This document shows positions 9,518 to 55,997 of a stretch of DNA of 64,000 bases, one piece after another. The translations under genes were made by a program, and so were the position numbers. How positions within the stretch are numbered: the first letter of the stretch is position 1; each line of letters starts with the position of its first letter. The notes under the pieces are model-generated. The model was not told where the DNA came from. It saw only the letters and a list, made by a program, of their open reading frames with translations, and searched no databases. Source of the DNA: Sipunculus nudus (Eukaryota; Annelida; Sipuncula; Golfingiida; Sipunculidae); contig CM049320.1 of assembly GCA_026874595.1 (NCBI GenBank), forward strand, positions 1,352,001 to 1,416,000. The letters run 5' to 3'.

Positions 9518-9565
<48 letters not shown>

Positions 9566-9571
9566 TATATT

Positions 9572-9615
<44 letters not shown>
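9512..9615. repeat. (AT)n microsatellite, interrupted
   Basis: Nearly pure TA dinucleotides with TATATT interruptions, inside the 9400-10418 insertion. A second tract is at 10286-10338. Confidence 0.9.
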
Positions 9616-9619
<4 letters not shown>

Positions 9620-9872: not shown

Positions 9873-9995
9873 CAACAGGCCCTGGTTTGGGTCGACCGTG
9901 AACAATCTCACGGCTCTGGTGATACCGGTACTCGAACTCGCGGTCTGTGCTCTTAGGAGTCCTGTACGTGTGCTGTCGAGACCACGGATCCCGGT
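9873..9995 (-). repeat. tRNA-derived SINE head, minus strand, inside a larger insertion
   Basis: The minus strand reads GGTCTCGACAGCACACG and then CGCGAGTTCGAGTACCGG, which resemble a tRNA-like D-arm and B box. It lies within the 9400-10418 element. Confidence 0.45.
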
Positions 9996-10279
9996 AAAAT
10001 GCAAAGTTTAACATAGCACCTCAACATATCAGTTTTTTCACTCCAACCACTACATTTAAAAAATAATATTTTGCAACTTTGCGCCATTGACTTCTTTAAA
10101 ATGACTGAAATTTTATATCCTAATTTTGAAGAAATATAAATATATAATATTGAACTTCTCTACAATTTTACTAACGTAAAGACTTAAGGAAACAGTTTTT
10201 CGGGAACAGGAAATCCTCATTTTTTTGGTGAAAATTGCCTCAAATTGTCCTCTTTACATTGCATATTAAAACAAATCCG

Positions 10280-10341
<62 letters not shown>

Positions 10342-10859
10342 GTTATATATACACGAATATATACCTGTTTTCATAGTGCCCATATTAGCGCCCTCCCTCA
10401 ATCCTGGCTACGCCACTGCTAGATGTAATTACAGCTGAGAAACTGACTGTTGTTGTCATTTTATAGTAAAAAAAATAGAAAAATATTCGTTTAAATAGCA
10501 AAAAATACAGGTGGCGCCACCACTATTTGGGAACAGACAAAACTAGTCATGGTCAATATTCAAGGCAAGATTCATGACAATTCATGCATTCATTATCAAG
10601 ATATTGGAGGTTTTGTATTATATTTTTGATTATTCTAGGGGGTACTTTCAAGCCCCATAGCTCGGAGGATATAGGTCACAGTGAGACAAAGTGCCATTTC
10701 TATACCTCAGTTGACTTACAGTCAGCTGAGCTAAAAAACAACGAATGAAAATAAATAAACTATGTATTACATAAATCTAATGATCAATCTAAAAAATGAG
10801 ATCAATAAAAATATTGTAAGTCCTACTGTATTCTAAATTCATTTTATTTGCACTTTTCA

Positions 10860-22149: not shown

Positions 22150-23490
22150 AGTGTGATATTTGGTTTCAAAGGTAAATTGTGGGTGTTCCTTAATATCACT
22201 AAGGAACGAAGTCCTACTGACCCAATTTTCTGTAAGGTATAGCTTTTGTATCTCCTACTGTATGCCGAAATTCAGATTTGTAGGGCCACCGGTTTCAAAA
22301 CGCGCCAGTTTAACGGACGAACGGACGGACAGCCGACGGCAAAAAAATCACTATAGCCCAGCTGACTTATAGACAGCTGAGCTAAAAATTGATACAAAAG
22401 CCCCATTATCTTGATTATTTTTCTAATTTTTACGCATTTTTTCTCTCTATTTTCAAGTCTTTCAAGCATGCAGTCGTCCGTAATGGAGTACCAATTGTAA
22501 CCATCACCTAGAATTTTCTAATTTATATCCAGGGAGGTCCATGAAAATCTTCTAATTTATATCCAAGGAGGTCCATGAAAAATCTTCTAATCTATATCCA
22601 GGGAGGTCCATGAAAAATCTTCTAATTTATATCCAGGGAGGTCCATGAAAAATCTTCTAATTTATATCCAGGGAGGTCCATGAAAAATCTTCTAATTTAT
22701 ATCCAGGGAGGTCCATGAAAAATCTTCTAATTTATATCCAGGGAGGTCCATGAAAAATCTTCTAATTTATATCCAGGCAGGTCCATGAAAATCTTCTAAT
22801 TTATATCCAAGGAGGTCCATGAAAAATCTTCTAATTAAATCCAAGGAGGTCCATGAAAAATCTTCCAATTTATATCCAGGGAGGTCCATGAAAAATCTTC
22901 TAATTTATATCCAGGGAGGTCCATGAAAAATCTTCTAATTTATATCCAGGGAGGTCCATGAAAACCCTCCTTAGAAACCTGAATATTTTCTCTGTTACCT
23001 ATATCTTTCGCGCTATAGGGGTTGTAGGTACCCCTCAGTATAATTAAACATATGATACAAAACCTCCAGTTTTTGGAAACAACTAATACATTGATAACCA
23101 TGGTTCTTTGCATGCATATTCATCATGAACATCATGAAGTGTTTCATTAGTTCCTGCAGACAGGTGGTGCTGCCTGGATGTTGTTTTTTTTTAAATTATA
23201 CGCATTTTTTATTTTCATTTTTGAGACCTTCAAAGATTTGGTCGTTCGTTAACAGGGCAAAAATCGTTACCATTACACCTAGAATCTCCTAAATTGATAT
23301 CCAGGGAGGTCCATGAAAAATCTCCTTGGAACCCTTAAATCAAGTCTCTGTTACCCAGATCTTCCTCGATATGCTTCAGTTGAATTGATATACCACCTAC
23401 AAAATTTGGCATTCAGATGAAAAAAAATAATCCTTTTGTGAAGGTCTTACTAGTCAGCTGAGCGTCATGACCCATGGGTCACTTGTTTAC
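22150..23490. repeat. Dispersed repeat surrounding the 35-bp array
   Basis: ACGG-rich DNA and GACAGCTGAGCTAAAA at about 22371 end one copy. GTCAGCTGAGCGTCATGACC and GGGTCACTTGTTT at 23451-23486 are the inverse of the left terminus of the 2.4-kb unit. Confidence 0.55.
22516..22962. repeat. 35-bp tandem repeat, about 12-13 copies
   Basis: The unit is TATATCCAGGGAGGTCCATG followed by AAAAATCTTCTAATT. Central copies are identical or differ at one base. Single diverged monomers occur near 20797 and 23297 inside dispersed repeats, so the array expanded from one such block. Confidence 0.88.
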
Positions 23491-24589
23491 TTCTGAATTT
23501 GTAAATATGGTTTAATCTGCATACAATTATAATTTGTGTAATATGGTAATCAGTTTCCAAAAATATATATATGATATAATTCAAAGCGCATAAAATGTTT
23601 CAGATACAAAATACCGTATTTGACGTAATAAGCGCCCCGGGCGCTTCATAATTGGATTTTCCAAATATTTTTAATAACCAAATAACCCCCCCCCCCCCGG
23701 GTCTACTATGTACCAGTTCGGTCCCGTCTTACGATCCCCTGTCATTGACACCTTTCGTTTGACATCGCATCACGTTCGCGGTGATCCTGAGAAGAAAAAG
23801 AGCCAAAACGATGATTGTGTAAAAGTATGAAATTAATGATAACTGATCCAAACAATATATTCAGTGTACTCATCATCTTAACGCCAACATATTACACAAG
23901 AAAGGTATTTGAATATCATATACACCTACTGTTAACATATTCGTAGCTGATGCCATCTGCCGCTTATCACAGGACTGAAAATCCCATTAACGGATACAAA
24001 AAACCAAAACAAGCAATCATATTTTATTATAATTATTATTTAAATATCCCCTGAACCAACGCACTTTTATGTGTGTTACCATCTTTCACAAATCACAAAT
24101 GCCGATCGACGAACTTCGCGGGTCTTTGCTGACCCGTAAAGAGTAAATTAGCTGGTAACTATATAACTTTACCCAAGGTTTCAAGCGGCCGGTGCTAAAA
24201 AAAGACGAGAGTATTGGCGCCGGGCATTCAGTATATTCCGTGAATTTAATACGCGTATGTAGATTTTAAAAATACAAAGATCAAGTAATGACTGTTCCCC
24301 CTTCGTCGAACTTGACACGTCGAACTTGAGGCCCGCTACTATTTTTTTTGCATTCAGATTGTTGACAATTTATTTTCATAAAGACTGCCAATACGATTAA
24401 TGCAGAGACTAATAAAGGACACGCTCTTCGAGATCATTTTCATTGCTTACATTTGAAGATGAGAAAGATTGCCCGCCGACATTTTGAGCGTAATGTTTTT
24501 ATTTTCAGTAAGACCACCATGTTTAAACTGATATTCACTGTCGATCTGTTGTCTTGTTAGGTGTCACATCGTATTTTCCTCGCTTTTCT
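23491..24589. other. Unannotated DNA with a poly-C tract
   Basis: Poly-C at 23687-23698. No ORF or repeat relation recognised. Confidence 0.5.
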
Positions 24590-24705
24590 TTAATTTCCAA
24601 AATATTAACGCACAATGTTATATCCAGGGGATGCCGCACATGAGACGTAACAACTATTGATCTTAGAACTTGCGCGTAAGCAAATCAATCCCCTTGGCTC
24701 AAACA

Positions 24706-24742
<37 letters not shown>

Positions 24743-26200
24743 GGCAAGGTAGGTAGCGCCACCTGTCTGGTTGACGAGAAAACTCTCAAAGATGTACATG
24801 CCAAATTGGACACCAACACATTGAAGTACTCCTCAGATATCAGCAATTTTCATCTAAAACAAATATGCAGTTGGACGCAATGCCAAAACGATTGCAGATG
24901 GCGACACCAGTCTTGCGTACAAGATGAAGGAGTCCAAGATCAATAGATATGCACAATTTCAGGCCAATAGGCTAAATCACTCCTTAGAAAGGGGCATTAA
25001 TTTATTCTACTAAAAAAGGAAGGTAGGTGGCGCTTCTGTCTATTTTATGAGAAAACTTTCAAATATGGATGGACATGCCAAATTTCAGACAAATCCCTTG
25101 AACAACTCCGGAGATAAAAGCTATTTTCACCGAAAGCACATGTAAAGATGAACGCCACAGCAATACGATTGCAGATGGCGCACCCAGTCTTATGTACAAG
25201 ATGGAAGAGTCCAAGATCTATGGATATGCACAATTTCAGGCCAATAATGCAAAAAAACCCTCAGAAAAGGGCATTAATTTATTCTACAAAAACAGAAAGG
25301 TAGGTGGCGCCACCTGTCTGGTTTATAAGAAAAATGTTAAAGATGGATGAACATGCCGAATTTCAGACAAATACCTTGAACCACTCGGGAGATATAAGCA
25401 ATTTTCACCAAAAGCACATGTACAGATGGACGCCAAGGTAAACGATTGCAGATGGCACCACCAGTCTTGAAAACAAGATCAATATACATGTACAAATTCA
25501 GCCCAATCTGTCAATAAGTTTTAGACTTATAATGCTTACAGTACTGTCAATTGACAATGATGGGGTATTAAAAGGCACGAAAACAAGAGAAAGACAGAAG
25601 TTGGCGCCACCTGTCTTCCGCAAAAGACAGAGCTATCCAAGATCTTTGGTCAGTTTGATTTTTGGACCAATGCATGCATCCCTTATGGAGATATTTATGA
25701 TTTAGTTTGATTTTCACCCTATATGGCAATATTCAAGGTCAAGGCCTCTCTTATAGGAAAGGTCATGACCCCGATTTACATATACATGTACATAATCCCA
25801 TAACCCATGTCTATGTATATGCATAATATGAAAGAAATCTGTCCGATTGGGGTGTTAAATGGCACGAAAACAAGATAAGGATAACAGGTGGCGCCACCAG
25901 TTTCCTGTACACTATCCAAGATCTTAAGTCAAGTCATTTTTTTTATCAATTCTTGCAAGATTTCTTGAGATATTTAAGAATGTGTGTGATTTTCCTCCAA
26001 AATGGATATATTCAAGGTCAAGGTCACTCTCCTTGTAAAGGTCATGACCCCATTTCAATAAGGCTTTGTCCTCTCTCCCATATCTATGCACATGTCAAGT
26101 TTGGTAAGTTACGTAAAATATCTTTTGAGTTATCGCGTCCAAACGATTCTCCACGGCGGCGGCGGCGGCGGCGCAACCGTGCCTAAACCATAGTATCTCC
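24590..26200 (+). repeat. Dispersed repeat with four GCGCC-type palindromes and a (CGG)n end
   Basis: Repeated ~270-bp blocks contain AAGGTAGGTGGCGCCACCTG or variants (24745, 25020, 25300, 25600, 25885). The 3' end has GTTATCGCG, (GGC)n at 26153-26174 and CATAGTATC, as at 50930-51010. Exact GGTGGCGCCACC lies at 25303-25314 and 25887-25898. Confidence 0.65.
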
Positions 26201-27609
26201 AGGCTTGTCTTGCGATACAATTATTATGCGATCTAATAAAGACGACCAATATACAGTTCGAAGGGCAAGGGAAGACATCTCGACATCTGTCAAATCTGGA
26301 ATATCTCGCCAAATAGTGGTGTTTTAAGCAAATGCCAACACAAGATTGAGGTGGTCAAATAAGACCATCTAAGCTCATGCAGTAGTGATTCGTGGTTGGT
26401 CAACCGTTATCGGCCATTCTTACATCTCCCAAACTATCCAGCCAAATCGTCATATACAGAATTGATTCTAGAAACAAGCTCTCTTAACTTTGTTGAAATG
26501 GCTCGGATTAAGTGAATTTTGGTTGAGTTGTAGGAAATTGAACTTAATCATTTGGCTGTGTAAATGCCCGTTCACATTGAACCCTGCGCTGTGCCCCGTT
26601 AGGCTGTGCTGCAGAAAAATGTTGAGTACATGCAATAACACTGGGGTGTCCACGCTAAACGCCAGCGCTGCAAGCGCGGCGCAGCATTCGGTGTGGCGGC
26701 GTCTTAATCATACTTGCATATCAATATCAGAAATGGTAGAAGCTAAAAAATTCAAATGTTGGTAACATGATACATACTTGAAATTAAGGTTTTTGTGGCT
26801 TCCCCTGCATCGACATGTATTTTACTGACAAAAGGCTGGTAACTGTAGCCTCTTCCAGCCACTACATCAAATATGTTTTATAATGAAACTGTCAAGTAGT
26901 CTGTATGCACTAGGGAGATTACATATGATGAACATTTTTTAAGTTTTTCATCTTATAACACTATTATTATTGATAAGACCAATACACAGATGACTTCGTA
27001 TTAAAATTTTTATCAGTACAACAGTAATAGAAAATGTTCATCAGGTGCTGTTGTTTGATAGATTTCAGTTTAAAATTTGAAATGAGGCTGTCAACTTTAT
27101 GTTACCAGATGTATACCAATTAAATATATTTTTGAATGTTGTTTTATTTCTAAAGTCAGGAGTAATTGTTTGTACATACATACATTTCATAATGGTTTAT
27201 TTCATATACTGTTAGATAATGTAATCCATAGATTAAAGTATACATTGTACTGAGACATATAGTGTCCATAGACAAAAAACTTTTCTTCTGCAATTTCTAG
27301 CTTTTTTTTTCTTCGCATTTTTATTTCTCAAAACCAGTATATTTTGATTATTTAATTTTAACATGCAGATTATCACGAGGTAAATTTTAAAGTTGAAGGA
27401 AAAAAATTTCTGCCCAAATTTATCGTTTTTTTCCGAATAAAAATTGTTGTATGTTATCAACAAAATGTGACGATAGTTATTCCATAAATCAGTGATTGTT
27501 GTTCATTATATCTATGGACATAATCGTTCAATGTAACATTTATACAACTACAACATTTCTTTCAGGTATCAGTTCAATATTTTATTCATTTCTAATAAAT
27601 GTTAGAAGT
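26201..27609. other. Unannotated DNA
   Basis: Short ORFs at 26490-26765 (+) and 27233-27463 (-) lack recognisable features. A GC-rich patch near 26650-26705 contrasts with AT-rich surroundings. Confidence 0.45.
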
Positions 27610-28072
27610 GCCACATTAAAAGTGACCCATGGGTCAAGACGCTCAGCTGACTGGGAAGAAGTTCACAAAAGGAAATTTTATCATCTGAATGGTAGTATAT
27701 ACTCATACAACTGAAGCATCAAACAGATTAACCAACAGGCCAAGATTGTGTCTGTATTTATATATATCAAAAATAGAGAAAAAATGTGTAAAATTTAAAA
27801 AAAATACAGGTGGTTCCACCAGTCTGCAGAAACTAATATAACAAGTGACCCAGGGGTCATGACGCTCAGCTGACCAGGAAGACATTGACAAAAGTAATTT
27901 TATCATCTGAATGTCAAATTTGAATGAAATACTTTTTCCAAACTTGACCTTTTGTATAAAATCATCCAATATTCATTGGGGTACTATGGAGCTCTGTAGC
28001 ATGAAGGATATGGGTAACAGACACCTATTTTCAAGGTTTACAAGATGACTTTTCAGGGGTCTCCCAGCATGT
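27610..28072 (+). repeat. Short repeats with GTGACCCATGGGTCA termini
   Basis: Copies of AAGTGACCCATGGGTCA...GACGCTCAGCTGAC start near 27622 and 27842. They are followed by blocks (GGTAACAGACACCTATTTTCA, CTCCCAGCATGTCAA) also found at 41520-41780. Confidence 0.55.
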
Positions 28073-29216
28073 CAAAAAACAAGTGACCCATGGGTCATGA
28101 CGCTCAGCTGCCAAGCATGACCTGTGACATCATGGACTGAGATTCACAACTTCCAGTCAAATTTTGAAGAACCAATTTGCCAATTTGTTGAAAATTTTCT
28201 ATGACAACAGAAATATATATCACCTAAGTCTGGTTAAAACACAGTGAATTGATGGTCTGAGGAAAATGCATGATTGTTAAGCTATCAGGAACTATTCCAA
28301 CAGCTTGCTTGAAACCTGTCAGTCTCAAAAGGAACACCACAAAGGGCAAATATAAGATCAAAATATATAGCAAAAATCAAGGAAATACATGCAAGAATTA
28401 TTGAGAAACAGGTGCTTCTGTATGCATTTTTATTCAATACAAGCCAACTGTACTGCACTTTTATAAATGATGGTAATTTTTATTCAGAAATATTTGACCC
28501 AATCCTTTACAAGATTACATAAATATACATCCAACTGCATTCACTGTTCTTGAGATAATATGATCAAAAGGAATTAAAAGATGGTTGCCTGGTGGCCATA
28601 TTGGACTTCTGACAGGTTCTGAAATCAGACAACAAACATTCTCTAAATCGGACCAAACATTAATGAAAAATTACTGAAACTGCACTGAAGAAAGAATTTC
28701 TAATGTGGCTAACTGGCAGGCATAATGGATTTCTGACAAGTATGACATTTGATATCCCACATTCTCCAATAAGAGACCAAACTTGGGGCAAATTATCCAG
28801 TAATAAATGCCCAAAATAATTCAAAAGGCATGTCCAGGCCCTCATATCATATTTACAGATATGCAATTGTAAAAAGTGTAAGTCCAATATTTTTTATTAT
28901 CACTCTGCTTTTCAATGGGGTCAGCAGGGTAGGTAAACTGCCAAACCTGAAAGAAAAGAAATGCAGAAAGCATGACTAAGAGTCTTGAAATAAAACAAAA
29001 AGCCATCCTAAATCAAGGTACACATCCACATATTATGAGAACAAACACTTGCTTTTATATGTGGTGATATATATTAAAATATTCAGATATCTAGGAAACT
29101 AAGTCTATTGCTAGGATTCCATAAAATAAACTGCAAAATGTTCCCATCATCTTATAAATCAGTAGCTAAACCTTAATACTATACTCTCATAGTCTTATTG
29201 CCTGGCTGAAGCATTC
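28073..29216 (+). repeat. Left half of the 2.4-kb repeat unit split by the RAG1-like transposon
   Basis: It is nearly identical to 61141-62278, with small indels. It starts at ACAAGTGACCCATGGGTCA and continues as 40185-41450 on the other side of the transposon. Short ORFs here are mirrored in the other copy but show no known domain. Confidence 0.85.
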
Positions 29217-29220
29217 TGAC

Positions 29221-29232
29221 CACAGCGGTTAG
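29221..29232 (+). repeat. Left terminal inverted repeat, RSS-heptamer-like
   Basis: CACAGCGGTTAG starts directly after the TGAC duplication. CACAGCG matches the recombination-signal heptamer CACAGTG at six of seven positions. I see no ACAAAAACC-like nonamer at a 12- or 23-bp spacing. Confidence 0.85.
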
Positions 29233-29641
29233 TAATAGCCCTGTGTTGCATGTTTAATGCTACAGCTGGAGTTGCTGGTGTATCAGGTTCCCACTTGAGA
29301 CACCAACAGAGACTGGAGGCTGGTCTCCTAGCAACAGGGTGTTTCAAAATGGCCGCCATGCTTGACAACAGACTGACTCTGTTGATGTTAATGAGTGATG
29401 ATGTGATTCTATTTCACCCCACTGGTACTCAGAGACCATATGAGATGGTAATCCTATCTCTCTGGTCAGTGTGGTCCTAGCTTTCGAGAGGTCAAGACGT
29501 GTGTAGCTGTGTAGCGTTGTAGTGTTATCTGAGCTTTACATTGTGGGTGTGCCCCAGGGTCAAGTGAGGAACTTTTCTTTGGTTTGTTTTGGATTTATAT
29601 GACAGACTGACTTGGTGAGTACGCTTTTTGTGATTATAAGC

Positions 29642-30733
29642 ATGCCCAGTTCAGATTCGGAGGGAGAGTTATCTGATGCTTATGAGGACAGATATAGCAG
29701 GCTAGAGGCCAGTAAAGGCCAAGTTTCTAGCCAAGTATCTGCAGGCCCAAACAAAGGGCAACCTTTGGCAGATGAGGAGACCATCAGCAATCAACAATTG
29801 CTGCAATTAATAATGAGCCAACAGGAGGTTTTGAAAAAACAAAATGAAAAAATTGATGGGCTCATCAGCAAGCTCAGTGAAGGAAAGTCCCAACCAAGTA
29901 GAGCTAATGATATAGAGGAGGTGGCTGACATCATTGAGGACTTATCAGATGGAAATGATTCTGATTCAGAATCAGGATCAGGGCCTGAGGATTTCCTAGG
30001 TGAAATTGTTACTTCCCTAGAGGATAACGAAAAAGTAGGGCCTAAGTTAACAGAGAAATTGCTTAAGATTGCCACCAAATCTTGGGAGGGATTTACTGAC
30101 AGACAAAAAATGGAGGATAAGATAAAATCATATCCTAAACCTGAAAATTTTGAGGCCTACAAAGGCGTAAAAGTAAACCATGAGGTTTGGAGGCTAATGC
30201 CTGAAAAAAGGCAAAAGATTGATGTCAGAATTCAGAACAGTCAAAAAATGACTCAAGCTGCTTCTGTAGCGATTCTGCAAGTAATGGGCACCCTGTCAGA
30301 GTCCCTGAAATCCAAAGAATGGAATCCTGGTACCATAAAGGAATTAATTAGGAAATTGTCTGATGCGCTTATGCTCAGCAACCATGGCAGGCATGAACTG
30401 CATTTTGTCAGGAGAGAGTTGTGTAGACCTTTCTTGTCTCCTGAGGTTTCTCATCTTTGTTCTAAAGAAACCCCAATAACAGACAAACTGTTTGGGGATG
30501 ATATCCCAAAACAAGTGGAAGACATCCACAAAACAAACAAAGTCCAGGAACAGATTAGACCTAAGAAAAGGAAACAATTTGATTATCAGGGGGACTACAG
30601 GCCTCGCCAAAAACAGGCAAAAAACTGGGGGAGTGGGCCTCATCATCACAAAAAGAAACCACAGGGAAAGAAAGGCCAGTATCCAAAGAACAGGTACAAC
30701 AGTCAAACCAACTACGACCGCCAATTTTACTGA
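29642..30733 (+). CDS. DIRS gag-like ORF1 protein
   Basis: First ORF of the DIRS element, about 363 aa from the ATG at 29642; the frame is open from 29612. The N-terminus is Ser/Glu/Asp-rich and acidic. A Gln/Leu-rich helical stretch (LLQLIMSQQEVLKKQ) could form a coiled coil. The C-terminal 60 residues are very basic and rich in Lys, Arg, Gln and His, suiting nucleic-acid binding, but no CCHC zinc knuckle is visible. Position and composition match DIRS ORF1 (capsid-like), a poorly conserved protein, so the call rests mainly on context. It ends about 10 bp before the RT frame opens. Confidence 0.75.
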   Translation: MPSSDSEGELSDAYEDRYSRLEASKGQVSSQVSAGPNKGQPLADEETISNQQLLQLIMSQQEVLKKQNEKIDGLISKLSEGKSQPSRANDIEEVADIIEDLSDGNDSDSESGSGPEDFLGEIVTSLEDNEKVGPKLTEKLLKIATKSWEGFTDRQKMEDKIKSYPKPENFEAYKGVKVNHEVWRLMPEKRQKIDVRIQNSQKMTQAASVAILQVMGTLSESLKSKEWNPGTIKELIRKLSDALMLSNHGRHELHFVRRELCRPFLSPEVSHLCSKETPITDKLFGDDIPKQVEDIHKTNKVQEQIRPKKRKQFDYQGDYRPRQKQAKNWGSGPHHHKKKPQGKKGQYPKNRYNSQTNYDRQFY

Positions 30734-30744
30734 AATCGACCACG

Positions 30745-32829
30745 GTGGTAAGTAAAGATAATTCTCCCAAATCAGATAAAGCAGGAACTAGAAATACGCC
30801 ATTTAAGGCCGGCAGTATTTCTGAGTGTTATGATCAGTGGAAATTGATGACATCAGATCCTTATGTACTGAAAATAGTGAAAGAAGGTTATAAATTGGAA
30901 TTTGTAGAGAAACCAATACAGGGCAGAATACCATCCCAAATCAAATTCTCTGAGAAAGAAACTGAACTTATTGATAATGAGATTACATCCTTAATGCAGA
31001 TGGGGGTCATTGAAACAGCAGAACCTGAGACAGGCCAGTTTTTATCCAATATTTTTATTAGACCAAAGAAAGACGATGGGGTCAGGGTAATTTTAAATTT
31101 GAAAAAACTCAACTCTTTTTTGGAATACAAACATTTCAAAATGGAAAATTTGGATATGGCCTTAAGACTAATGTCTAAGGATTGTTACATGGCCTCGGTA
31201 GACTTGTAGAAGACATATTATTCGGTGAAGATTTTTGAGGCTCACAGAAAGTATTTGAGATTTATCTGGAAAGGGCAGCTTCTACAGTTCTGCTGCATGG
31301 CTATGGGACTGGCTCCCGCGCCCAGACTTTTCACAAAACTTACAAAAGTCATCATGAATTGGTTGAGGAAACAAGGTGTAATGTCTATAATTTACATTGA
31401 TGACACTTTTTTAACAGCTAGTTCATGGTCAGAATGTACTAAGTATGTCAGAATTACTATTGACATATTCACCAGGCTTGGGTTTACAGTAAATGGTGAA
31501 AAATCTGTAGTTACCCCTTCAACCAGACTAGATTTTCTTGGTTTTGTATTAGATTCGACCACAATGAGTGTTAAACTCACTGAGGGAAAGGCAAGGAAAT
31601 TAGAAAGTCTTTGCAATGATATACTAAATAAGAAAACTGTAAGAATACAATTAGTAGCACAGCTCGTTGGGAAAATGGTATCTTGTTTCCCAGCTGTCCC
31701 GATGGGCAAGTTGTTTTATAGACAACTTGATAGGGATAAGAATGAAGCCCTGAAACAGGCTGCTGGAGATTACAATGCTGGTATGGAGCTGTCAACCAGG
31801 GCCATAGCTGACATAGCATGGTGGGCAGATAATGTCCAGCATACCACAAAGCCTATCATCAGGAGGAAACCTGACCTGGTTATCAAAACCGACTCCAGCA
31901 AAAGGGGCTGGGGATACGTGGCCCCAGGCAGGTCAACGGGAGGTGAATGGTCGCCTGTTGAAGCACTATCATCAATCAATGTCCTCGAGGCCAAAGCAGT
32001 TCTGTTTGCTTTAAAGTGTTTCTGTCACTCATTGGAAAATATACATGTGCATATCATGATTGACAACACAACTGCAGTGGCTTATATTAACAATATGGGT
32101 GGTTCTAAATCACCAGAATGTAATGAAGTCGCCAGAGACATTTGGTTTTGGTGTAAAAGTAAAAGGATATGGCTGTCATGCTCTCATTTACCCGGCCATT
32201 TGAACAATGAGGCGGATTTTGAAAGTAGACATTTCAATGATGACACTGAGTGGTCATTACATGAATCAATCTTCCGCATGATGGTGGAAAGATTTGGAAT
32301 GATGGACATAGATCTGTTTGCCTCTAGATTAAACAAGAAAATTGACAAATATGTGGCATGGCGTCCGGACCCATTTGCTTTTGCTATAGATGCTCTGTCA
32401 TCTGTGATTAACTGGCAAGATTTTAATTTCTATGCTTTCCCACCTTTCAGCCTAATTCCAAGAGTGTTACAAAGGATAGAGAACGATCAAGCAACAGGTG
32501 TTCTGATAGTACCATACTGGACCGGGCAGCCTTGGTTTCCCCAGCTAATGCGTCTCATGTGCGAGAGGCCAGTATTGTTTACCCCACATCGTCACCTGCT
32601 GGGCCTCCAACACAAACCAGATGTCCTACATCCCCTTCACAGGAAAATGTACCTACTTGGAGTGAAATGCTCCGGGAATCCCTTAAAGAGAAAGGGATTC
32701 CACAACTTGCTACAGACTGCATTATACAGTCATGGAGACCCACAACGCAAAAACAGTACAGCACTTATTTTGCAAAATGGATTAGATTCGCTATTTCAGA
32801 AAACTATGACACATTTAATCCTAAAATAG
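30745..32829 (+). pseudogene. DIRS reverse transcriptase / RNase H, one internal stop
   Basis: One reading frame encodes the RT and RNase H domains and is broken only by a TAG at 31207-31209. There VDL-stop-KTYYSV replaces the usual VDLKDAYYSV-like motif A, so a Lys codon probably became the stop. RT motifs are MGLAPAPRLF and the catalytic YIDD (31393-31404). RNase H follows with KTDSS, an LEAKA helix, IDNTTAVAYINN and a PGHLNNEAD motif supplying the acidic and His residues. A tail with DIDLFASRLN and VPYWTGQPW is typical of DIRS polyproteins. No ATG is needed if the frame is reached by frameshift or reinitiation after the gag ORF; the first codon here is GTG. Its 3' end overlaps the recombinase frame by about 300 bp, a normal DIRS feature. 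Confidence 0.85.
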
Positions 32830-33629
32830 AACAGGTTTTGCATTTTTTGTCAGGTTTATATGAGACAGGTGCTAGTTACAGTGCATTGAACACTTGCAGA
32901 AGCACACTATCGTCTTTATTAATAATCAACTCGGGACAAAGTTCAGTCGGTCAACATCCGCTGGTGCAACGTTTTATGAAAGGGGTATTTCAGCAAAGGC
33001 CCACTTTACCCAGATACATGCAGACATGGGATGTATCTGTGGTACTGACTCTCTTAAAACAGTGGGCTCCAGTAAGGAAATTAACCTTAAAGAAATTGAC
33101 ATTGAAGCTGACAATGCTTCTGGCAATTCTGTCAGGACAACGGATTCAAACTTTACATTTACTTAATTTGGATTCTATGGAACTAGGAAGTTCCAAATGT
33201 ATTTTTATTGTGGACAAATTGATTAAACAATCCTCTCCAAGATATCATCTGAAACCTTTAATTTTTAAAGGTTATGCACCGGATAGACGCCTGTGTATTT
33301 TGACTGTAATTAAAGAATACTTATATAGAACTGTTAATATTAGAAAGAGTAGACAATTGTTGATTAGTTTTGTTTCACCTCATGATGGAGTAACAAAGGA
33401 TACTGTAGCTAGATGGCTTAAAGCAGTTATGAGGGAGGCAGGCATTGATACTAATATTTATAAAGCTCACAGTACAAGATCAGCCTCCACTTCCAAAGCA
33501 TCAAGAGCTCTGCCGATACAAGACATTTTGTCAGCAGGAGGTTGGAAATCTGAATCCACTTTCAGGAAATATTATCAATTACATGTTACAAAGTCTAACA
33601 GTTTTGAAAAGGCAGTATTACAAGAGTAA
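32532..33629 (+). CDS. DIRS tyrosine recombinase
   Basis: The ORF is intact, up to 365 aa, with no clear ATG near its opening because it overlaps the RT/RNase H frame. The N-terminal half (WRPTTQKQYSTYFAKW) resembles a core-binding SAM-like domain. The catalytic half shows the first Arg in LSGQRIQTLHL, the HxxR box in AHSTRSAS, GGWKSE, and the nucleophilic Tyr in FRKYY near 33567. The enzyme should integrate a circular DNA copy by site-specific recombination, replacing the DDE integrase of LTR elements. An AATAAA follows at 33722-33727, just before the internal complementary region. Confidence 0.88.
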   Translation: MVSPANASHVREASIVYPTSSPAGPPTQTRCPTSPSQENVPTWSEMLRESLKEKGIPQLATDCIIQSWRPTTQKQYSTYFAKWIRFAISENYDTFNPKIEQVLHFLSGLYETGASYSALNTCRSTLSSLLIINSGQSSVGQHPLVQRFMKGVFQQRPTLPRYMQTWDVSVVLTLLKQWAPVRKLTLKKLTLKLTMLLAILSGQRIQTLHLLNLDSMELGSSKCIFIVDKLIKQSSPRYHLKPLIFKGYAPDRRLCILTVIKEYLYRTVNIRKSRQLLISFVSPHDGVTKDTVARWLKAVMREAGIDTNIYKAHSTRSASTSKASRALPIQDILSAGGWKSESTFRKYYQLHVTKSNSFEKAVLQE

Positions 33630-33780
33630 TAGCTAGACTTTTGGTCATATGTCTAAGCTGCCAGATTTTATTTGTTTTGATGCATCTTTTTATACGTGCT
33701 TGTATATTGATTGTGAGGTACAATAAAGTAGAATGTACAGCATTCGTTTATGTTGTTTCATAAACATATACACTCTAAAG

Positions 33781-33902
33781 TCTCATATGGTCTCTGAGTA
33801 CCAGTGGGGTGAAATAGAATTAAGAAATTAAATGAGCCTTACCTGTAAGGTGAAATTTGATTAGGATTCTATTTCACACCACTGGTGCGAGGGGAACATA
33901 TG
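33781..33902. repeat. DIRS internal complementary region
   Basis: It carries the inverse of both element ends back to back: 33781-33820 matches 29406-29445 perfectly and 33818-33902 pairs with 34011-34095. It is thought to template completion of the ends during circle formation. The 85-bp arms separated by about 108 bp could also form a large hairpin. Confidence 0.88.
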
Positions 33903-34109
33903 CCCACCCAATTAGGGCTGTTTCCCCACCCTGATAATGATTTCATCATTATCTGTCTGTATATGTTTATTCAACGCTGAAGTCTGACCAGAGAGATAGG
34001 ATTACCATCTCATATGTTCCCCTCGCACCAGTGGTGTGAAATAGAATCCTAATCAAATTTCACCTTACAGGTAAGGCTCATTTAATTTCTTAATTAAATG
34101 GGGTATAAG

Positions 34110-34230
34110 TCTGTGGTATTTGCCTCCAGGGGTAATCCCATCAATCAGTCTGTCTGATAACCCTAAAGGTCATAGGGTTCAAGTCATACCGGTCACACAA
34201 TGTTGTGGTGTACTGTGTTGCTATGGGTAA
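34110..34230 (+). repeat. Possible tRNA-derived SINE fragment
   Basis: Directly after the DIRS end lies AGGGTTCAAGTCATACC, a good polymerase III B box. A candidate A box near 34120 is weak. It belongs to the leader of the RAG1-like transposon. It may instead be chance sequence. Confidence 0.3.
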
Positions 34231-34582
34231 AGGCGGGGGATAAGAATCCAGCTATTTGTAAGTTCATTTTTTGATGAATGCCATTTTTTATTCACTAATG
34301 TAAAATACCAATGGAAAGGTAAAGTTCTGATTAATTAATGAAAGTTGATAAATTCACTGTGTCAATTTTAATTTTTAAGATATGATACCCTATTATATGC
34401 ATGTGTGAGCCACATTGTGAGTGCATGTTCTAGGCTGGGCACTCTTACTCTTACAGATGGTGATGCTGTGCTTTTGTTATAACCATAATAATCATAAATA
34501 TTGACAACAGGAATCATATTTCTGTATTTGTTAACTTGGATTTGCTTTAAAAATTTTATTTATCAAAATTTTTATATTTTAT

Positions 34583-34624
<42 letters not shown>

Positions 34625-34658
34625 ATATAATATAAAGTTCATGGATCAAATTTAGTTC

Positions 34659-37600
34659 ATGGAGGGCACATTAGACTTTCATCTTCTTGCATTAGCTGAT
34701 CTTTGTAGAATTTGTGGGAACAAGGCCCAGTCTAAAGCTGAAAAGGTTAAATACAAGCCCATCCTGTGTGTAGATAATTTTCAAAGGATACTTGATACAT
34801 TTGAAATTGATATATCAACAGATCACTTGGATGTACACCCAAAACATATTTGCAGGCAGTGTTATTTTAAACTCTTCAATCAGAAAAGAGATTCTGCCCA
34901 TGCTGAAGACAGAGCAAACAAACTTAAAAATGATGCCCAAGAAATAAATACAAATTGGTTACCCCATAAAAGGGGAACAATACAAAATTGTTTCACATGC
35001 AAACAACATGTTGTAATGAAGAAAAAGGGAAGGCGTCCTACTCTCAAAAGAGGGGCTCCAAAAAGGATTCCAGATAATTTAAAATTTGACCACAGGTCAC
35101 TCAACATATTTGAAGGTGGAAGTGATGAAATCATGGTGCACAATGCCATAATTACTGGGTTAGATGACACACAAAAACAGTTTTTCCATTGTCCTTTATG
35201 TACAGAGGTTTATTCCACTAATTCTGTTGCTGGAGAATGTGGGCATTACTTTTGTTCACACTGTTTAAGTGCGGAGTTTTGTAATGCTCTAACTAATACA
35301 CTGCCATGTCCTGTATGTGGTGCGGATATAGATTACAGTAATGTGCACCATGCTGACAGCAGATTTAAGGAGCAGATTCTTGCTTTACAATTGCAATGTA
35401 AATTATGCAGTGCAGTGTCTACTACTAAAACACACGTGGCTCACACATGTCATTCTGATCAAGATCACACAGTAGCTGATCTAAATACTGAAAACAGTTT
35501 TGATGACATGGAAAATGCATGTAGTATCCCTCCGAGATCAAATTTTTCCCCTGTCACCCCAGTCTTTAAGCCAAGTATTACAAGTACACCACTAGAATCA
35601 CAAACTAGTAACCGTGTGCAAGTCTCAATGGCCATTCAAACCTCACCTGGCATAATGCCACTGACTGTTGAGCAGAGTGTAAATAAAAGTCTTCATGAAC
35701 CACCACTCAAGGAAGAACAGAAGCTTTACACCAAGTTGACCAAACGCTTGCTCAATTTCTCAACAGAAAAAGGTACTATTCGCTGCAAGAACAAACGTGG
35801 GCAGGTATGTGTTCTTTTTTTATAAGTGTTTGTTCTATGTTACATACAAAAAAACTTAATTTTCATTACAAAATCAGCATTTAAGTTCTGAACATTCATT
35901 CATTTTAAGAAATGTATGTTTTTAACTACTAACATGTAAGGACTCTACGCAAAATTGAAATGGAACTCCATTCTTTGATAAATATTAATGTTTGCTTATC
36001 TGCATTGTAGCCCATAATTCTGCATAAAACTGTTATTCCAAGGAAAGCATCAGTAAAAGCACCTTCACGTCTAATTAAGAGAAGGGCTGCTGCCATTGGA
36101 AAAATAAGGGCAGTGATGGCAGGGAAAGAAGGGGAATGCAGTGAAATTCAACAATCAGCTGAACTTAAAAAACTGAGTAGAGGGACGAGAGAGTCTGTGT
36201 GTTCAAGAGCTGGAATTGTTCATCGTGCACGGCTCAACAGATACACCAGTTTGGCAATGAAAACCAGTCTCGGTCTAAGCTGGCGTCAGATGCGAAAACA
36301 AAAAAGGTGAATCTCAAAAGCAAATCAAATTAATTCCTCCTTTGAATGTAAAAGTTTCTTTTTATATTTCATACATTTTTCTTTAAATATTAACCAGATA
36401 GTTTCAATGTTTTCTTTGTTCATTGTTTGTTGTTCTGTTTAACAAAGAAGATTAAAATTACAGGTTTCTTAAAGCTGCTGGAGTTAGCCTCGAGAACGAA
36501 CATGAAGAAAGAGCTGCCAAAGACAACATTATAAGTGATCATCTCAAGGGAGAACTGACTACATTAACTGAAAGAGATGAAAATAATCCAAACTGTGACC
36601 GGAATGGGCTTGTAGAAAAAAAAGTACCGTATGTGTATGTTAAGGATTTGAAAAAGTTTGTGGCTGAGCTCCTAAACAGATACAACAGGTAACAAGAATT
36701 TTTTTACGTTTAATTAATTGATTTATGGTAAACGTCTTCTTGATTTAATAAGTATGTTATTCTTGTAAAATATTAGGCAGCTATGCACAATTTATTAAAT
36801 ATGATATGATAGTCTGCTAAAAGAATTCACTAGATAAAATCAGTTAATAATTTGATATTTACAGCCAAGGAGTATTGATATGGAGGGATGGTAAAATGCC
36901 AGAGGATGAAGTATGGGTGAAAATTGGAGGGGATCATGGCGGAGGGAGTATGAAATATACACTGCAAGTCCTCAATATAAAGGAACCAAATTCTAAAACC
37001 AATACATTTGTTATTGGTTGTTTTGAGGCAAAAGATAACCATGAAAACCTTCGGCGAACCATATCGGTAATGAAACCTGGAATATCTCAGCTTGCCTCTA
37101 TGACTTGGAAGTAAGTAATGTTCATAACATTTAGTAAAACTGCAGATTTCAAGTTCCCAAATTTACATTTTCCTTCTCATGAAAAAGTATTTTCCACACA
37201 CACATTTTATTTATTTTCCAGTGGCAAAAGGACCAGAGTGTTTGTTCAAGGTGATTACGACTTCCTTTGCAAACTTTATGGCTTGTCTGGTCACAACGGT
37301 GAGAAAATTTATTTTTCTTGTGTGTATAAATGGTAACATATCCTTCTGCCTTTATTTATATTATTGATAAATATATAGAGGCCAGTCATTTATATATTTT
37401 TATTTTTGTTTACACAAGGTGTGTATCCGTGTTTGTGGTGCCTCATAAAGAAGCCGGATTTACAGGTCAAACGTTCACTTCGTGAACCTTCACAACAGCG
37501 CAAGTTGTCACAACTCAAGCAACACAATCTGTCATTTCAAAGGATGGGTAAAGGAAAAAAGTCCAAAGCATCACTGTTCAAGAATGTGATACATGCACCA

Positions 37601-39028
37601 TTATTAGACATCTACATCAGCCAGGTAAATACATGTGTCCATTTGACTTTTATTACAATATAGGTATAAATTTAAATATCATCCTTGTCAGCTGTGACTT
37701 ATTTTTAAATTTCTTCATCAGGTATCTCCACCGTATCTCCACATCCTGCTTGGTGTGGTGAAGAAGCACCACGACATGCTTGTGAAGGAATGTCATGAGA
37801 TTGATCTAGCGATTGCCAGAAAGTGGGCACAAGATGGTCACTCTGTAGAAGGCACATCCAAATATGATACATATGTACAGCAACTAACCACAATCAGCAG
37901 ACTGGATATCGAGGCTACTGATATTAGAGGGCAGTTGTTAGAGACACAAGGGCATGAAAACATCCCATTGGCCAGAATGCAGGCAAAACTAAAAAAGCTG
38001 GAGGGTCAGTTGGAAGAAATTGTAAGTGGCGATTCTCTATCCGGATGCATAAACTGTTGTAATTTATTTATCAAATGCCATGTTTATGCCATGTATATGC
38101 CAATAAATAAATAAAGATTTTTTTTATTCAGATCAGAAAAAAAAAACACCCTGGAGAAAACCTTGAAGTTGGATGTATATGCTGGACCTGTAGTCTCAAA
38201 TTTAGATGTAATCCTGCAACAGCATGCCATCAAGGTACAAGCCTACCATAGCCACAGTCTGGTTGGAAACCATTGTAATAAGTACCTCAAGGTAACAGTT
38301 TTTATGTTTCAGATTTTATTAAAAAAATTATATTTGTTTGCTCGTTTATAAATAAATAGAGGTATTAATTGAATACATCTCATATTTCTCTTCCAGAGGA
38401 ACGTTTACCAAGACCTCTGTGACCAGGTTGTCAAAAAAGTGGAATCTTTGACATCAGACATCCTGATAATAAACAGAGCTGCGAATGCAGCCTTCACCTT
38501 CCAGACTCTGAACAGGCGTTTTGCTGCGGTACACCAAGCAGTGTCTAGCGATGGAGTACTGGGAGAAAATGATTGTACCATAATTGGTAAGTAGTTTTCA
38601 CTATATTAAGACACACACACGCACACACACACACACATATACATATATTTATACATATATATATATATATAATGATAGATTGTATATAATAATAATAATG
38701 AATATAATCAATATTTCTTTTCACAGAGAAAAGGATCAATGCATACATGGGCTACTACAGAGGTCATTTCAATGAGCATGTCATACCAAAACAGCATTTC
38801 CTAGAGGATCACGTGGTGCCATGGATAAGAAGATGGGGGTTTGGTATGAGCCTGCATTCCGAACAAGGAGGAGAAGGAGTGCATGCCATGATGAACTGTC
38901 TGAAGCGAAATACCTGGGCAATGAAAAATCCACTGAACAGGATCATTTCTACGGTTAAAGAACAACACGCTATGTGTTCACCTGAACTACAGGCACAAGT
39001 GCCACCAGTTAAAAAGAGGAAACAATAA
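34659..39028 (+). CDS. RAG1-like transposase (RAG1 N-terminal zinc region + RING + DDE core), ten exons
   Basis: Exons: 34659-35804, 36011-36306, 36464-36688, 36865-37110, 37222-37298, 37419-37624, 37722-38021, 38132-38291, 38397-38586 and 38727-39028. All nine introns (97-206 bp) are GT-AG and all joins keep frame except at exon 8. The start is the first usable ATG; an in-frame TAG lies 6 bp upstream. The product is about 1048 aa, similar to vertebrate RAG1. Residues 16-68 hold CxxC...HPxxxCxxC as in the RAG1 N-terminus, followed by CFTC (111-114) and a KKKGRRP basic patch. A C3HC4 RING uses C178, C181, C194, H196, C199, C202, C217 and C220. The core has candidate acidic residues D579 (KIGGDHGGG), D649 (QGDYDF) and E994 or E998 (SEQGGEG), plus a PCLWC zinc pair. 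Expected role: DNA cleavage and strand transfer at the CACAGCG ends. Exon 8 carries a one-base frameshift, so this copy may be inactive. Similarity to N-RAG-TP is from memory. Confidence 0.85.
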
Positions 39029-39186
39029 TTCACCTTGTACACTAAATACGCAATACTGAGGAAGTTTTTTAAGAGATTAGGAACAAGCAACCATGGATTG
39101 GGACATGAGTATTTTGATCAAGTGTCTTTTGAAGTTTTAGTTATAAAAAATGTATCATCTTCCTCAATTATATATTCAGGTGGTAC

Positions 39187-39188
<2 letters not shown>

Positions 39189-39254
<66 letters not shown>
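39189..39254. repeat. (AT)n microsatellite in the RAG1-like 3' UTR
   Basis: About 33 TA units; a second tract lies at 39393-39445. Both are absent from the old copy at 51013-51535, so they expanded after the copies separated or were lost there. Confidence 0.9.
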
Positions 39255-39257
<3 letters not shown>

Positions 39258-39388
39258 CAACAGATGTTTGATCAGATTGACCTAGCAGATTAGGTATTTT
39301 TATCTGATTGAATGTATCAACTTTTTTATTCATATATTTATTCAGGTGGTATAGATATATCATTATATTGATTAATGAAATTATACAT

Positions 39389-39447
<59 letters not shown>

Positions 39448-39992
39448 CTGCAAAAGATAATTGATCAGATTTGACCTTGCTAACAAGATAATTTTTTTCT
39501 TATTTTGGTGAATATGCTTCCTGTGCATAATACTGTTATTTGAAATATAATAATCTGACAATTAATACAAAATATGTGTTAGTATTAACAACACCATCAA
39601 ATAGCGAACGAGCAATTTCCGCCGTAAGCCGTCTATAACTGCCTAAGTAGTGTAAATTAAGTGATTAAAACATGAAAATCTAAAATTGACAATATATTTT
39701 AGAAAGTGGTACATCATTAAATGATATATAAGGAACATGATATGTAAATATCAACATAAATAAAAATGGATAATCATGTTTTTGTATCAGTTATATTAAC
39801 TGTATTCATCATGTATTCTGCATAATTCAGTGCAAAACTCCTCTCTCTGATTCATGAGGGCTTCTATAAGCTTTTCTTGTAATCTCCCTTTCTCTGTGGA
39901 GTAGTCATGTCTAATTACACATTGAGCAGAATATAAGCTTTAGATTGATATGAAATATATGATGTTTTGAAGAAAGTGTTTAATATATATAC

Positions 39993-39998
39993 AATAAA
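39993..39998 (+). terminator. Polyadenylation signal AATAAA of the RAG1-like transposon
   Basis: An AATAAA lies about 180 bp before the right terminus and 965 bp after the stop codon. It is inside a segment also preserved in the diverged copy near 56.5 kb. The two (AT)n tracts between stop codon and signal probably inflate the 3' UTR. Confidence 0.45.
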
Positions 39999-40168
39999 AC
40001 GTCTGCAAAACCCAGGTCTTATCTCTTTGTTGTGAGGGTACAGTAGCCTGTGTACCTACACTGAAGCCACACTGATCTGGTAACATGATACACATGCTGG
40101 GCTTGGGATCTGCTGTGTGTACTCACAGCCACTGCACTGTACTAGTGACCCATTAAGTGTTCACCCAG

Positions 40169-40180
40169 CTAACCGCTGTG
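40169..40180 (-). repeat. Right terminal inverted repeat, RSS-heptamer-like
   Basis: CTAACCGCTGTG is the exact reverse complement of the left end and is followed by TGAC. Sequence identity with the left end stops after these 12 bases. Confidence 0.85.
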
Positions 40181-40184
40181 TGAC

Positions 40185-52620: not shown

Positions 52621-52879
52621 CCATAGGTACGGGTCCCTGACGCATGATTTTCACTAATGACGCATGAGCTTTAGGCCAAATGGGTCCCGCGGGACTCTTG
52701 AAATTATTACTTATTCAACAGTCATTTTATACTGTTGAACAGTCAGTATCCAGGCAGGTTCGATGGCTGTACGAATGCCCGTGATACGCGTGGTAGCCTT
52801 CCCATTGTAAACAAAAAAGTGAACCGTGGGCGATAAAGAAGCTCGCGCAATGCAGGCTGGGAACGAGGGCACCTAGTTC

Positions 52880-53640
52880 ATTTTGGTTCATTTTGGTTCT
52901 CATCTTTAACTCAATCTACAAAATGTAAGTTGCAAATATCCCAAAATAAATTAATTCGGTTTGTTCTCAACTTGCATCCTAGAACTCATTTGTATTATGA
53001 ACACTTTAATCAGTTGGGCTGGCTACCTGTTGCACAGAGAGTCGACCAGCTCAAACTAAACCATGTGTACAGAACGCTGAATGGCCAGGCTCCTGCATAC
53101 CTATGTAATAGTTTTACATGTACCTCTAATGGTCATACTCATGTTACTAGATCTAGTCATCATAGCCTTATCATCCCTCATCATAGTATCCATGGTAAAC
53201 ATAGCTATAGTGTAACAGGTGCTAAATTATGGAATAATCTTCCGGTAGATGTAGCAAACAACAGTCTATCAATTTCAGTTTTTAAGAAAAAAGTAAAAAA
53301 AGTATTATTTAACCAGATTCATGATCTCGAAATAAACGACTTTATATTTTATTAGTATCTCATATTCGTGCTATGGAATAAGTTTTTTAGATTTGTTATA
53401 TGTCGCAATATTTATTATTTTATAGTTTACACATAATGCTTTTACTCTCTTTCCGTCCGTATCTTGTATCATTTCATAGAGGACCACGATGGAAATAAGT
53501 TTTTTAACTTTTTCGAGTCATCCTCGATTTTATTCAGTATTGTATCACAGGTTTTATCAAATTGTGTATTTTTTATTTTCATATTACCATATGTATATTT
53601 TTTTTTGGTACCAGTTGATATTGTACTGAATTGGATCTAA
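52880..53640 (+). mobile_element. 5'-truncated non-LTR retrotransposon (LINE), RT C-terminal part
   Basis: An open frame from about 52909 to 53355 encodes the tail of a LINE ORF2. It has KLQISQNKLIRFVLNL, the LGWLPVAQRVDQLKL segment, YRTLNGQAPAYL, and AKLWNNLPVDV followed by a Phe/Lys-rich helix. These motifs are typical of the CR1/L2/Jockey side of non-LTR elements, after the RT palm. The 3' UTR extends to about 53640. Upstream RT and endonuclease are missing, as expected for abortive reverse transcription. Confidence 0.8.
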
Positions 53641-54425: not shown

Positions 54426-55830
54426 TTACAACAACAACAACAAAGTTTATTGTAGAAAGGCCTCATGGCCCAAAGTACAAATAACTTAAGTAACATATAA
54501 ATATACACAAGTTTGCCATCACTTTCTGCCAATATGTGCTTAATCATGTTAAAAGATATATATGTCATAGAAAAGAATTGCACTGATATACACAAATGAA
54601 AATATATATGTGTACAATTATCAATTATACATAAAATTACGGTATTCAGTGAATTTAATAATTTAAGTACTACTTTATGGAATATTATTTTCTGAAATGT
54701 TTTCCTGTCTTACTCTGTTTACCTGAAATAAATATACACCTAAATCATATTGTATCTTGTGATTCTGTGTTCTCAAAATCTGAATAAGCCCATATTTATT
54801 TTGTGGAAAATTCTGTATAAATGATAAAAATTTATTTCTTAAATCTTTATATCTGGAACACTTGAAAAGAATATGGGCCTCATCTTCAATTTCATCATTC
54901 TTACAAAATTTACAGAGTCTCATATTTACAGGAGTATTACTTCTTCTGCCTACTTCAATCTCAAAATCATGGTCACTTAGTCGAAATTTTGTTAAAACCT
55001 GTCTATAGATGTATGGGATATTATTTAAGTATCGTTCTGGTTCAATGCCTGATTTTACTTCACTATATATACTGAGTTTGGATTTTTCTTTAATTTCAGA
55101 TAACATCTCTTGCTGTCCGATATCCTTGACTCTTTGTAGAAACATATCAATGAACATTTTTTCATCACCAACTCCCTGTTCTAACCATGCATGGCCAAAT
55201 CCATACCTATTCAATAAATGCTTAATATAGCCTGGCCATGTAGGCTTACCCAGTTCATTTAACCGTTTTAAGGCATTATAACAAATAAAAGGATATATAG
55301 AATTTCCCATATTCAGTATTCTTAACCAATATTTTAGACATCTCTTAAAGTACATACAATGCAAAGGATATCTACCTCATTCAAGCAGAACTCCTGCATT
55401 AACTGTGCTTCTGCTAACACCCAGAATTTCTTTACAAAATCTTGATTGCACATTATCTATAATTGGTCTTGATAAGAATCCCCAAATTTCAGAACCATAT
55501 AATAATGCTGGTGCTACAACTTTATCAAATATATTCATTGTGATATCAGGAGACATTTTACCACATTTAGATTCACATTTTTTAACCATATTCAGGCCCT
55601 TCTGTGCTTGAAGTGTTAATAATTTCAGACAAGGATTCCAGGACAATGTAGAAGAAAATATTATTCCCAGATATTTATATTGGTTCACATTAGTTAATTG
55701 TTTTCCCTTGAAATACCATTTTTCATTATGTTTAATTATACTTGCCCTCTTAAAGACTACAGCTTTTGTTTTTTCTGCATTTACTTGCATACCCCAATGG
55801 TTACAAAAAAATTCTAACATAATGCTTACA
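54426..55830 (-). mobile_element. 5'-truncated non-LTR retrotransposon on the minus strand
   Basis: The element runs leftwards and ends, on the minus strand, in AATAAACTTTGTTGTTGTTGT (54429-54450 in + coordinates), a (TTG)n tail with its own polyadenylation-like signal. Sequence to the right of about 55830 is unrelated AT-rich DNA, so the 5' part is missing. Confidence 0.8.
54675..55820 (-). pseudogene. Reverse transcriptase C-terminal fragment of the minus-strand LINE
   Basis: One frame, interrupted by a single TGA near 55374, carries the end of a LINE RT. It shows VNAEKTKAVVF, YKYLGIIFSSTLSW, PALLYGSEIWGF and the later GKPTWPGYIKHLL region. Near the C-terminus is a CKFCKNDEIEDEAHILFKC motif, the CxxC...H...C zinc-like element found after the RT in several clades. 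The catalytic palm (FADD-type box) lies upstream of the truncation. Confidence 0.8.
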
Positions 55831-55997
55831 TATACCTTAAGAGTACAAATATGTTTTTTTAAAAGAAAATGTTGCCAAAGCCCTGTGTAAGATCCTATTG
55901 TTAATTAAATGGCTTAGAGCACAAATGATAATATATGACATTTTCTTAAGAACAAAGCAACCATAAAAAATGTTTTAAATTTATATCACAATTGGCA

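Follow-up and report, generated by a model that had tools for sequence, protein, structure and literature searches.

A recently mobile Chapaev transposon family of Sipunculus nudus with the domain layout of RAG1

We analysed a 64,000-nucleotide stretch of the Sipunculus nudus genome (assembly GCA_026874595.1, contig CM049320.1, positions 1,352,001 to 1,416,000 of the forward strand; hereafter the window, from whose first base positions are counted) and found that the element at 29221-40180 is a real transposon. We place it, with a probability of about 0.94, in the Chapaev superfamily of cut-and-paste transposons, with a single ten-exon gene for a DDE transposase that has the layout of RAG1. 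A first-pass annotation had taken it for a RAG1-like transposon akin to N-RAG-TP of Aplysia. The RAG1-type N-terminal zinc residues, C3HC4 RING and DDE core were indeed found in RAG1 order, but DUF1280 and the 4-bp target-site duplications mark a Chapaev instead, and the element falls outside the RAG1-like transposons as usually understood, which belong to the RAG1-core family and have 5-bp duplications.

Results

The element is bounded by a perfect 12-bp terminal inverted repeat, CACAGCGGTTAG at 29221-29232 on the forward strand and its complement at 40169-40180 on the reverse strand, flanked by matching TGAC duplications at 29217-29220 and 40181-40184 (neither assigned a strand), as the first-pass annotation had reported. 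Among 12-bp inverted pairs in the window that are spaced 500-20,000 bases apart and have a 4-bp matching flank, 29221/40180 was the sole one starting with CAC, and 40 Markov shuffles yielded no pair of this kind. The end-pair statistic is not strong by itself, since flank-matched inverted pairs without CAC also occur elsewhere in the window; the reality of the ends is settled by copies elsewhere in the genome.

To find such copies, 1.43 Gb of genome in 153 contigs were probed. A 247-bp probe around exon 4 gave 14 matches, three of them at 100% (the window and copies on contigs C3 and C2) and eleven at 72-76%. With the left end as probe we recovered the same three and one match at 80%, and with the right end the window, C2 and two more distant matches; the right end of the C3 copy was not found. 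The further copies with the same ends that the first pass had proposed to look for therefore exist: family 1 has two more members, one with both ends, and the duplication of the two-ended C2 copy, CATT, is different from that of the window. The left inverted repeat is present in sister copies L009 and L010, which are 99.5-100% identical to the left part of the window element (29221-29405, forward strand).

We then scanned 20 loci for ends under a rule that required CAC and allowed duplications of 3, 4 or 5 bp. At seven loci (L010, L011, L040-L043 and L045) the two ends agreed at 12 or more of 14 bases; the other 13, which include the single-exon paralogues described below and L044, whose flank is 4 bp, gave no pair or only pairs with 10 of 14 and were not counted. 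Family 2 consists of five two-ended copies of 6.08-6.13 kb with ends CACAGCAGTTAC and 4-bp duplications, and a third kind is represented by one copy with ends CACGGCTGTTTCA and a 4-bp duplication. The longest matching flank was exactly 4 bp in every copy with both ends found (8/8). Ungapped identity was 99.7-99.8% within family 1 and 99.6-99.7% within family 2, and because the copies are near-identical we conclude that both families moved recently.

The transposase gene lies on the forward strand at 34659-39028 and has ten exons separated by nine GT-AG introns. Exon 1 (34659-35804) encodes amino acids 1-382 and carries the paired Cys of the RAG1 N-terminal region, in a zinc region at approximately residues 1-115, as well as the C3HC4 RING and a following zinc finger at approximately residues 175-265. 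The DUF1280 match begins in exon 2 (36011-36306), which is followed by exon 3 (36464-36688). Exon 4 (36865-37110) contains the first catalytic Asp, D579, within KIGGDHGGGS, exon 5 (37222-37298) the second, D649, within QGDYDF, exon 6 (37419-37624) the C(2)C motif formed by C668 and C671, and exon 7 (37722-38021) the LH motif formed by L738 and H739. Exon 8 (38132-38291) and exon 9 (38397-38586) lead to exon 10 (38727-39028), where the H(4)H motif, the catalytic Glu (SEQGGE) and the stop codon (39026-39028) are found.

In the Pfam scan, DUF1280 (PF06918) matched residues 447-623 of the window protein with an E-value of 2.3e-21; PMC3985635 identifies DUF1280 as the Chapaev transposase and places it in one clade with RAG1. 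A protein search in which 7,999 candidates were scored produced 31 relatives, 26 to 45% identical. Those that could be named belong to gastropods (Nucella, Elysia) and to Hydra, and the description of the element as molluscan at first pass is not established. Twenty-eight of the 31 were aligned with the window protein (alignment A1), excluding P0011, P0019 and P0024, of which two were long fusion models and one was odd. At E ≤ 0.001, DUF1280 was present in all rows (29/29), RAG1_imp_bd in 8/29 and zf-C3HC4 in 4/29. Conservation was nearly complete at the motif positions (D579, C668, L738 and H739, 29/29 each; D649 and C671, 28/29 each) and complete at C-terminal columns when gapped rows were left uncounted (H972, 24/24; H977, E994 and E998, 23/23 each). 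A search with the alignment returned two proteins, one of which was new: P0033, a 360-aa protein with 57 member sequences that consists of the N-terminal zinc region and RING only, an N-RAG-TP-like product.

No model named Chapa appeared in the Pfam scan, and the RAG1 N-terminus was used as the yardstick for that domain. In profile-profile comparison residues 1-300 matched RAG1 with a probability of 98.8% (E 8e-17), a significant result for the stretch, residues 1-260, on which the proposed kinship with RAG1 had been staked. RAG1 was also the best match of the family profile in the PDB (profile positions 6-111, E 4.5e-11); when the single sequence was compared to the PDB by phmmer, RING matches filled the listing and the RAG1 N-terminus reached just E 0.012. 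The predicted model of the core of a relative has the RAG1 fold. This fold and the N-terminal zinc/RING region are common to Chapaev and hence not diagnostic of RAG1 or the RAG-like (RAGL) transposons.

We classify the element as Chapaev rather than RAGL or Transib because it combines a DUF1280 transposase, the Chapaev motifs (DDE with C(2)C, LH and H(4)H) and exactly 4-bp duplications, within the 3 to 4 bp typical of the superfamily, and has no RAG1-core match. Its termini read 5'-CAC ... GTG-3' within the inverted repeats, and a RAG1-type N-terminal zinc region followed by a RING in one protein is the arrangement of those Chapaevs that have a Chapa domain and a RING.

Of the competing explanations, the first is that the element is a RAGL or Transib transposon and thus directly related to the V(D)J recombinase, which we consider very improbable and already contradicted. 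The RAG1-type N-terminus, the RING and the RAG1 fold would all be expected of it, and the CAC ends share 6/7 bases with CACAGTG, the heptamer of V(D)J recombination. The first-pass annotation had called the ends similar to the heptamer of the recombination signal sequence, a label we do not retain: it rests mainly on CAC, which is common to Chapaev, CACTA and Transib elements. The RAG1 core (PF12940) had no match in the window protein listed at E up to 10, with HMMER filters discarding most matches above E 0.1, and the window lies outside the 34 stretches of the genome that match PF12940. Moreover, duplications are 4 bp in 8/8 copies, not 5, the core clusters with DUF1280 proteins, and the list of open reading frames in the window holds no long RAG2-like frame, a RAG2 profile search not having been made. 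The PF12940 core and 5-bp duplication of RAG1 and RAGL are thus both absent, as are the 5-bp duplication of Transib and its core-only transposase without zinc region or RING. On PF12940 and duplication length, we ruled out membership in either group.

True RAG1-like genes are found elsewhere in the same genome. Some of the 34 PF12940 stretches are pieces of one gene, and the best (E 1.1e-77) lies within a 997-aa open frame, L049 (contig C2, 3872900-3876400). Pfam assigned to L049 a RAG1 core (1.6e-79), RAG1_imp_bd (8.8e-8) and a RING just below cut-off. Both L049 and L050, a 958-aa open frame on contig C10 (30492900-30496600), match the N-terminal profile and the RAG1 core; the RING of L050 and the C-terminal Cys/His motif of both genes were read by eye. 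In a quick tree of cores, 29 Chapaev rows were divided from 6 RAG1/RAG1L rows by a branch with an SH-aLRT support of 100, for which the program warned of long branches.

Several results weigh against a Chapaev with the full RAG1 layout, or soften the evidence for it. In the window protein itself the RING matches, at approximately residues 178-220, were at or below Pfam cut-offs, and RAG1_imp_bd scored 20.6 bits (3.7e-4) against a cut-off of 23.3. Compared to vertebrate RAG1 alone, the core showed no significant sequence similarity, with a probability of 1.8% (E 0.027) by hhalign and 2.6 bits by hmmsearch, and reached 96% only after two RAG1L proteins of the same genome were added. The fold was predicted for a relative 36% identical and not for the window protein itself. 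For exon 1, the fold search listings shown were filled by RING and U-box proteins; Foldseek placed 1rmd 15th among RING structures, and by VIA-align the next RINGs were 1.0 Z lower. The fold evidence therefore covers the exon 1 RING and the core. Finally, splice sites of the window and L040 genes were predicted from DNA, and in the L040 model, discussed below, the kind, phase and approximate position of splice sites were preset, which leaves its openness as the only test.

We next considered whether the N-terminal part and the core belong together. As far as DNA can tell, the zinc region, RING and core are parts of one protein, a conclusion based on an open gene model in family 2 and on single-exon paralogues. 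By homology-guided splicing, L040 of family 2 has an open 1060-aa protein with ten exons and nine GT-AG introns, 552 residues of which are identical to the window protein; the acceptor of its third intron is unsure. Exon pieces of family 2 were also stop-free by tblastn, in the exon order of the window. DUF1280 has at least 32 matches in the genome. Single-exon paralogues of approximately 40% identity have the same domain order (L012, L013 and L022-L027). L012 has one stop-free frame of 587 aa that covers query residues 1-547; the stop-free frame of L013, 590 aa long, begins at approximately query residue 47 and takes in the first catalytic Asp. All eight are interrupted by one or more frame breaks or stops, and none had convincing ends under the rule of CAC and 3-5-bp duplications.

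A zinc/RING exon that came from another gene or element and stands beside a Chapaev core by chance is accordingly even less probable than membership in RAGL or Transib. An intron does separate exon 1 from the core exons, the RING reaches E ≤ 0.001 in few relatives (zf-C3HC4, 4/29) and an N-terminal-only protein, P0033, exists. Against this, family 2 keeps the exon order with stop-free exons, in L012 and L013 a single frame without stops spans the zinc region, the RING and the beginning of the core, and in the full-length relatives P0005 and P0028 the zinc/RING part is joined to the core. The least credible option, a domesticated host gene with retained transposon ends, could account for a long gene with conserved motifs but conflicts with three near-identical copies on three contigs, two of them two-ended with different duplications, and with frame offsets in 3/3 copies under the exon model used.

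The window copy is less intact than first described. The first-pass annotation had called it complete and well preserved; both ends are kept, but a nested retrotransposon went unmentioned and, in the assembled sequence, exon 8 does not continue the reading frame of the gene. Exons 1-7 are stop-free for 832 residues, and exon 7 ends in phase 0. Exons 8-10 are open, one base off the frame that exon 7 delivers, with the offset located at a run of ten A (38137-38146). The run has ten A in the C3 copy also and eight in the C2 copy, which has an additional one-base insertion in exon 1. In the sister family, exon 8 opens in phase 0 and encodes a matching peptide; for this reason the offset probably lies in the window copy rather than in the acceptor that was chosen. 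Unless a weak AG further downstream serves as acceptor, the window gene is probably broken, or misassembled in the homopolymer; by our reading of the sequence, a weak in-frame AG deeper in exon 8 would give a product of 1040 aa. The about 1048 codons of the single spliced gene proposed earlier are reached only if the frame offset is ignored, since the ten exons with canonical splice sites do not form a single open frame.

The nested element occupies 29406-34095 on the forward strand and is foreign to the Chapaev, whose own length is approximately 6.27 kb without this later insertion of 4.69 kb (43% of 29221-40180). It matched RVT_1 (1.3e-11) and the tyrosine recombinase Phage_integrase (2.7e-8), both above Pfam cut-offs, and, below cut-offs, a Dam-type domain (1.9e-4) and RNase H (0.0059). 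Its termini are inverted, and an internal stretch is complementary to the outer end on either side. Given this combination, we take it to be of the DIRS-1 type, with the difference that the reverse transcriptase frame of this copy is interrupted by a stop codon (31207-31209). Since ATT is present at both borders, one copy of ATT belongs to the target. Sister copies L009 and L010 have an empty site at this position, which indicates that the DIRS element landed later, inside an already inserted Chapaev.

Elsewhere in the window, other inverted pairs with matching flanks lie at 23460-28105 and 7453-13217, and several overlapping matches in the former suggest longer, partly palindromic arms. Long frames at 52837-53352 (forward strand) and 54678-55904 (reverse strand) resemble reverse transcriptase remnants by eye. 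A Pfam scan of four long frames of the window, these two among them, found nothing at E ≤ 0.01.

Discussion

The closest published counterparts that we found are the Chapaevs with a Chapa domain and RING of Kapitonov and Koonin 2015 (PMC4411706). They share with the window element a Chapaev core preceded by a RAG1-like N-terminal zinc domain and then a RING; the elements described here differ in forming their own families with their own ends (CACAGCGGTTAG and CACAGCAGTTAC, respectively), in having a ten-exon gene, and in the single-exon paralogues found alongside them in one genome. The tree of that paper includes Aplysia californica, which is also one of the species of the Chapaev set of PMC4079192. 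Our literature searches, whose coverage largely excludes subscription journals, found only PMC4411706 for Chapaev, RING finger and mollusc, and only a review (PMC13428168) for RAG1-like transposons of gastropods.

Martin et al. 2020 (PMC7204232) describe mollusc RAGL transposons with N-terminal zinc fingers and a RING dimerisation domain. These RAGL of molluscs and nemerteans resemble the window element in having N-terminal zinc fingers, a RING (in molluscs) and a RAG1-type core in one protein. They differ in their RAG1-core family and 5-bp duplications, both absent here, and in their RAG2L partner, of which none was seen in the list of window reading frames, a list not supplemented by a RAG2 profile search. 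Transib likewise has 5-bp duplications as opposed to 4 bp, and PMC4411706 presents the core as the only identifiable domain of the canonical Transib protein. N-RAG-TP of Aplysia (Panchin and Moroz 2008, also treated in PMC2996935) is characterised in PMC8355894 as entirely RAG1 N-terminal-like sequence. Compared by description only, it is similar in being a transposon with a RAG1-like N-terminal protein and different in that the window element has a DDE core in later exons.

This difference could be one of gene prediction. Exon 1, with 382 codons, holds the zinc region and RING without the core, and to a reader of single frames it would for this reason resemble N-RAG-TP when taken alone; N-RAG-TP may thus represent no more than exon 1 of an element of this kind. 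The distribution of the RING offers a further lead. In a tree rooted with RAG1, RING proteins occupy scattered, early side branches (P0028, Hydra P0031, P0005, P0004 and the window clade), which fits an ancestral RING lost several times. Rows with a core of 330 aa or less were excluded from this tree, as was P0029 for being too short. Eleven rows have a RING (7 Chapaev, 4 RAG1) and 13 do not, requiring a minimum of 3 changes. One loss and two regains would also amount to 3 changes, and by our count losses alone need four; RING presence was read from the alignment and RING-less gene models are possibly mis-predicted, the root stands on a very long branch, and P0028 is a long row. We therefore regard it as conceivable, at somewhat less than even odds, that a single protein with zinc region, RING and DDE core in this order existed before Chapaev and RAG1/RAGL diverged, that several lines then lost the RING, and that Aplysia N-RAG-TP is the large first exon of a spliced Chapaev rather than an N-terminal-only transposon in its own right. 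If true, a fusion of N-RAG-TP with Transib is not needed to make RAG1.

From the termini, the DDE residues and the RAG1 fold we deduce that the element moves by cut and paste, with a transposase paired at its CAC ends. Two transposase subunits would pair the CAC ends, a nick at the CAC border would be followed by a cut on the flank through a hairpin route, as in RAG1 and Transib, and the element would be joined to its target with a 4-bp stagger. The insertions show this stagger, and the hairpin step is suggested by analogy with RAG1 and Transib; the RING would, as in RAG1, serve in dimerisation and as a ubiquitin ligase. In the assembled sequence the gene of the window copy is probably non-functional, and so this copy would be mobile only through an enzyme supplied by another one.

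These are recently mobile Chapaev families with the layout of RAG1, and they add no further link to the origin of antibodies. The suggestion made at first pass, that the element bears on whether the RAG1 N-terminus and core were joined in a transposon, stands insofar as both are in one protein, and is already published in PMC4411706 and PMC7204232; the element lessens the need for an N-terminal-only transposon fusing with Transib to make RAG1, a view likewise already in print. Families of near-identical Chapaev copies, in one of which the gene model is open and the insertions are independent, have the complete RAG1 layout and are workable material to probe the role of the RAG1 N-terminal zinc/RING part in a transposase. 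With true RAG1-like genes in the same genome, S. nudus is a host suited to comparing both lineages.

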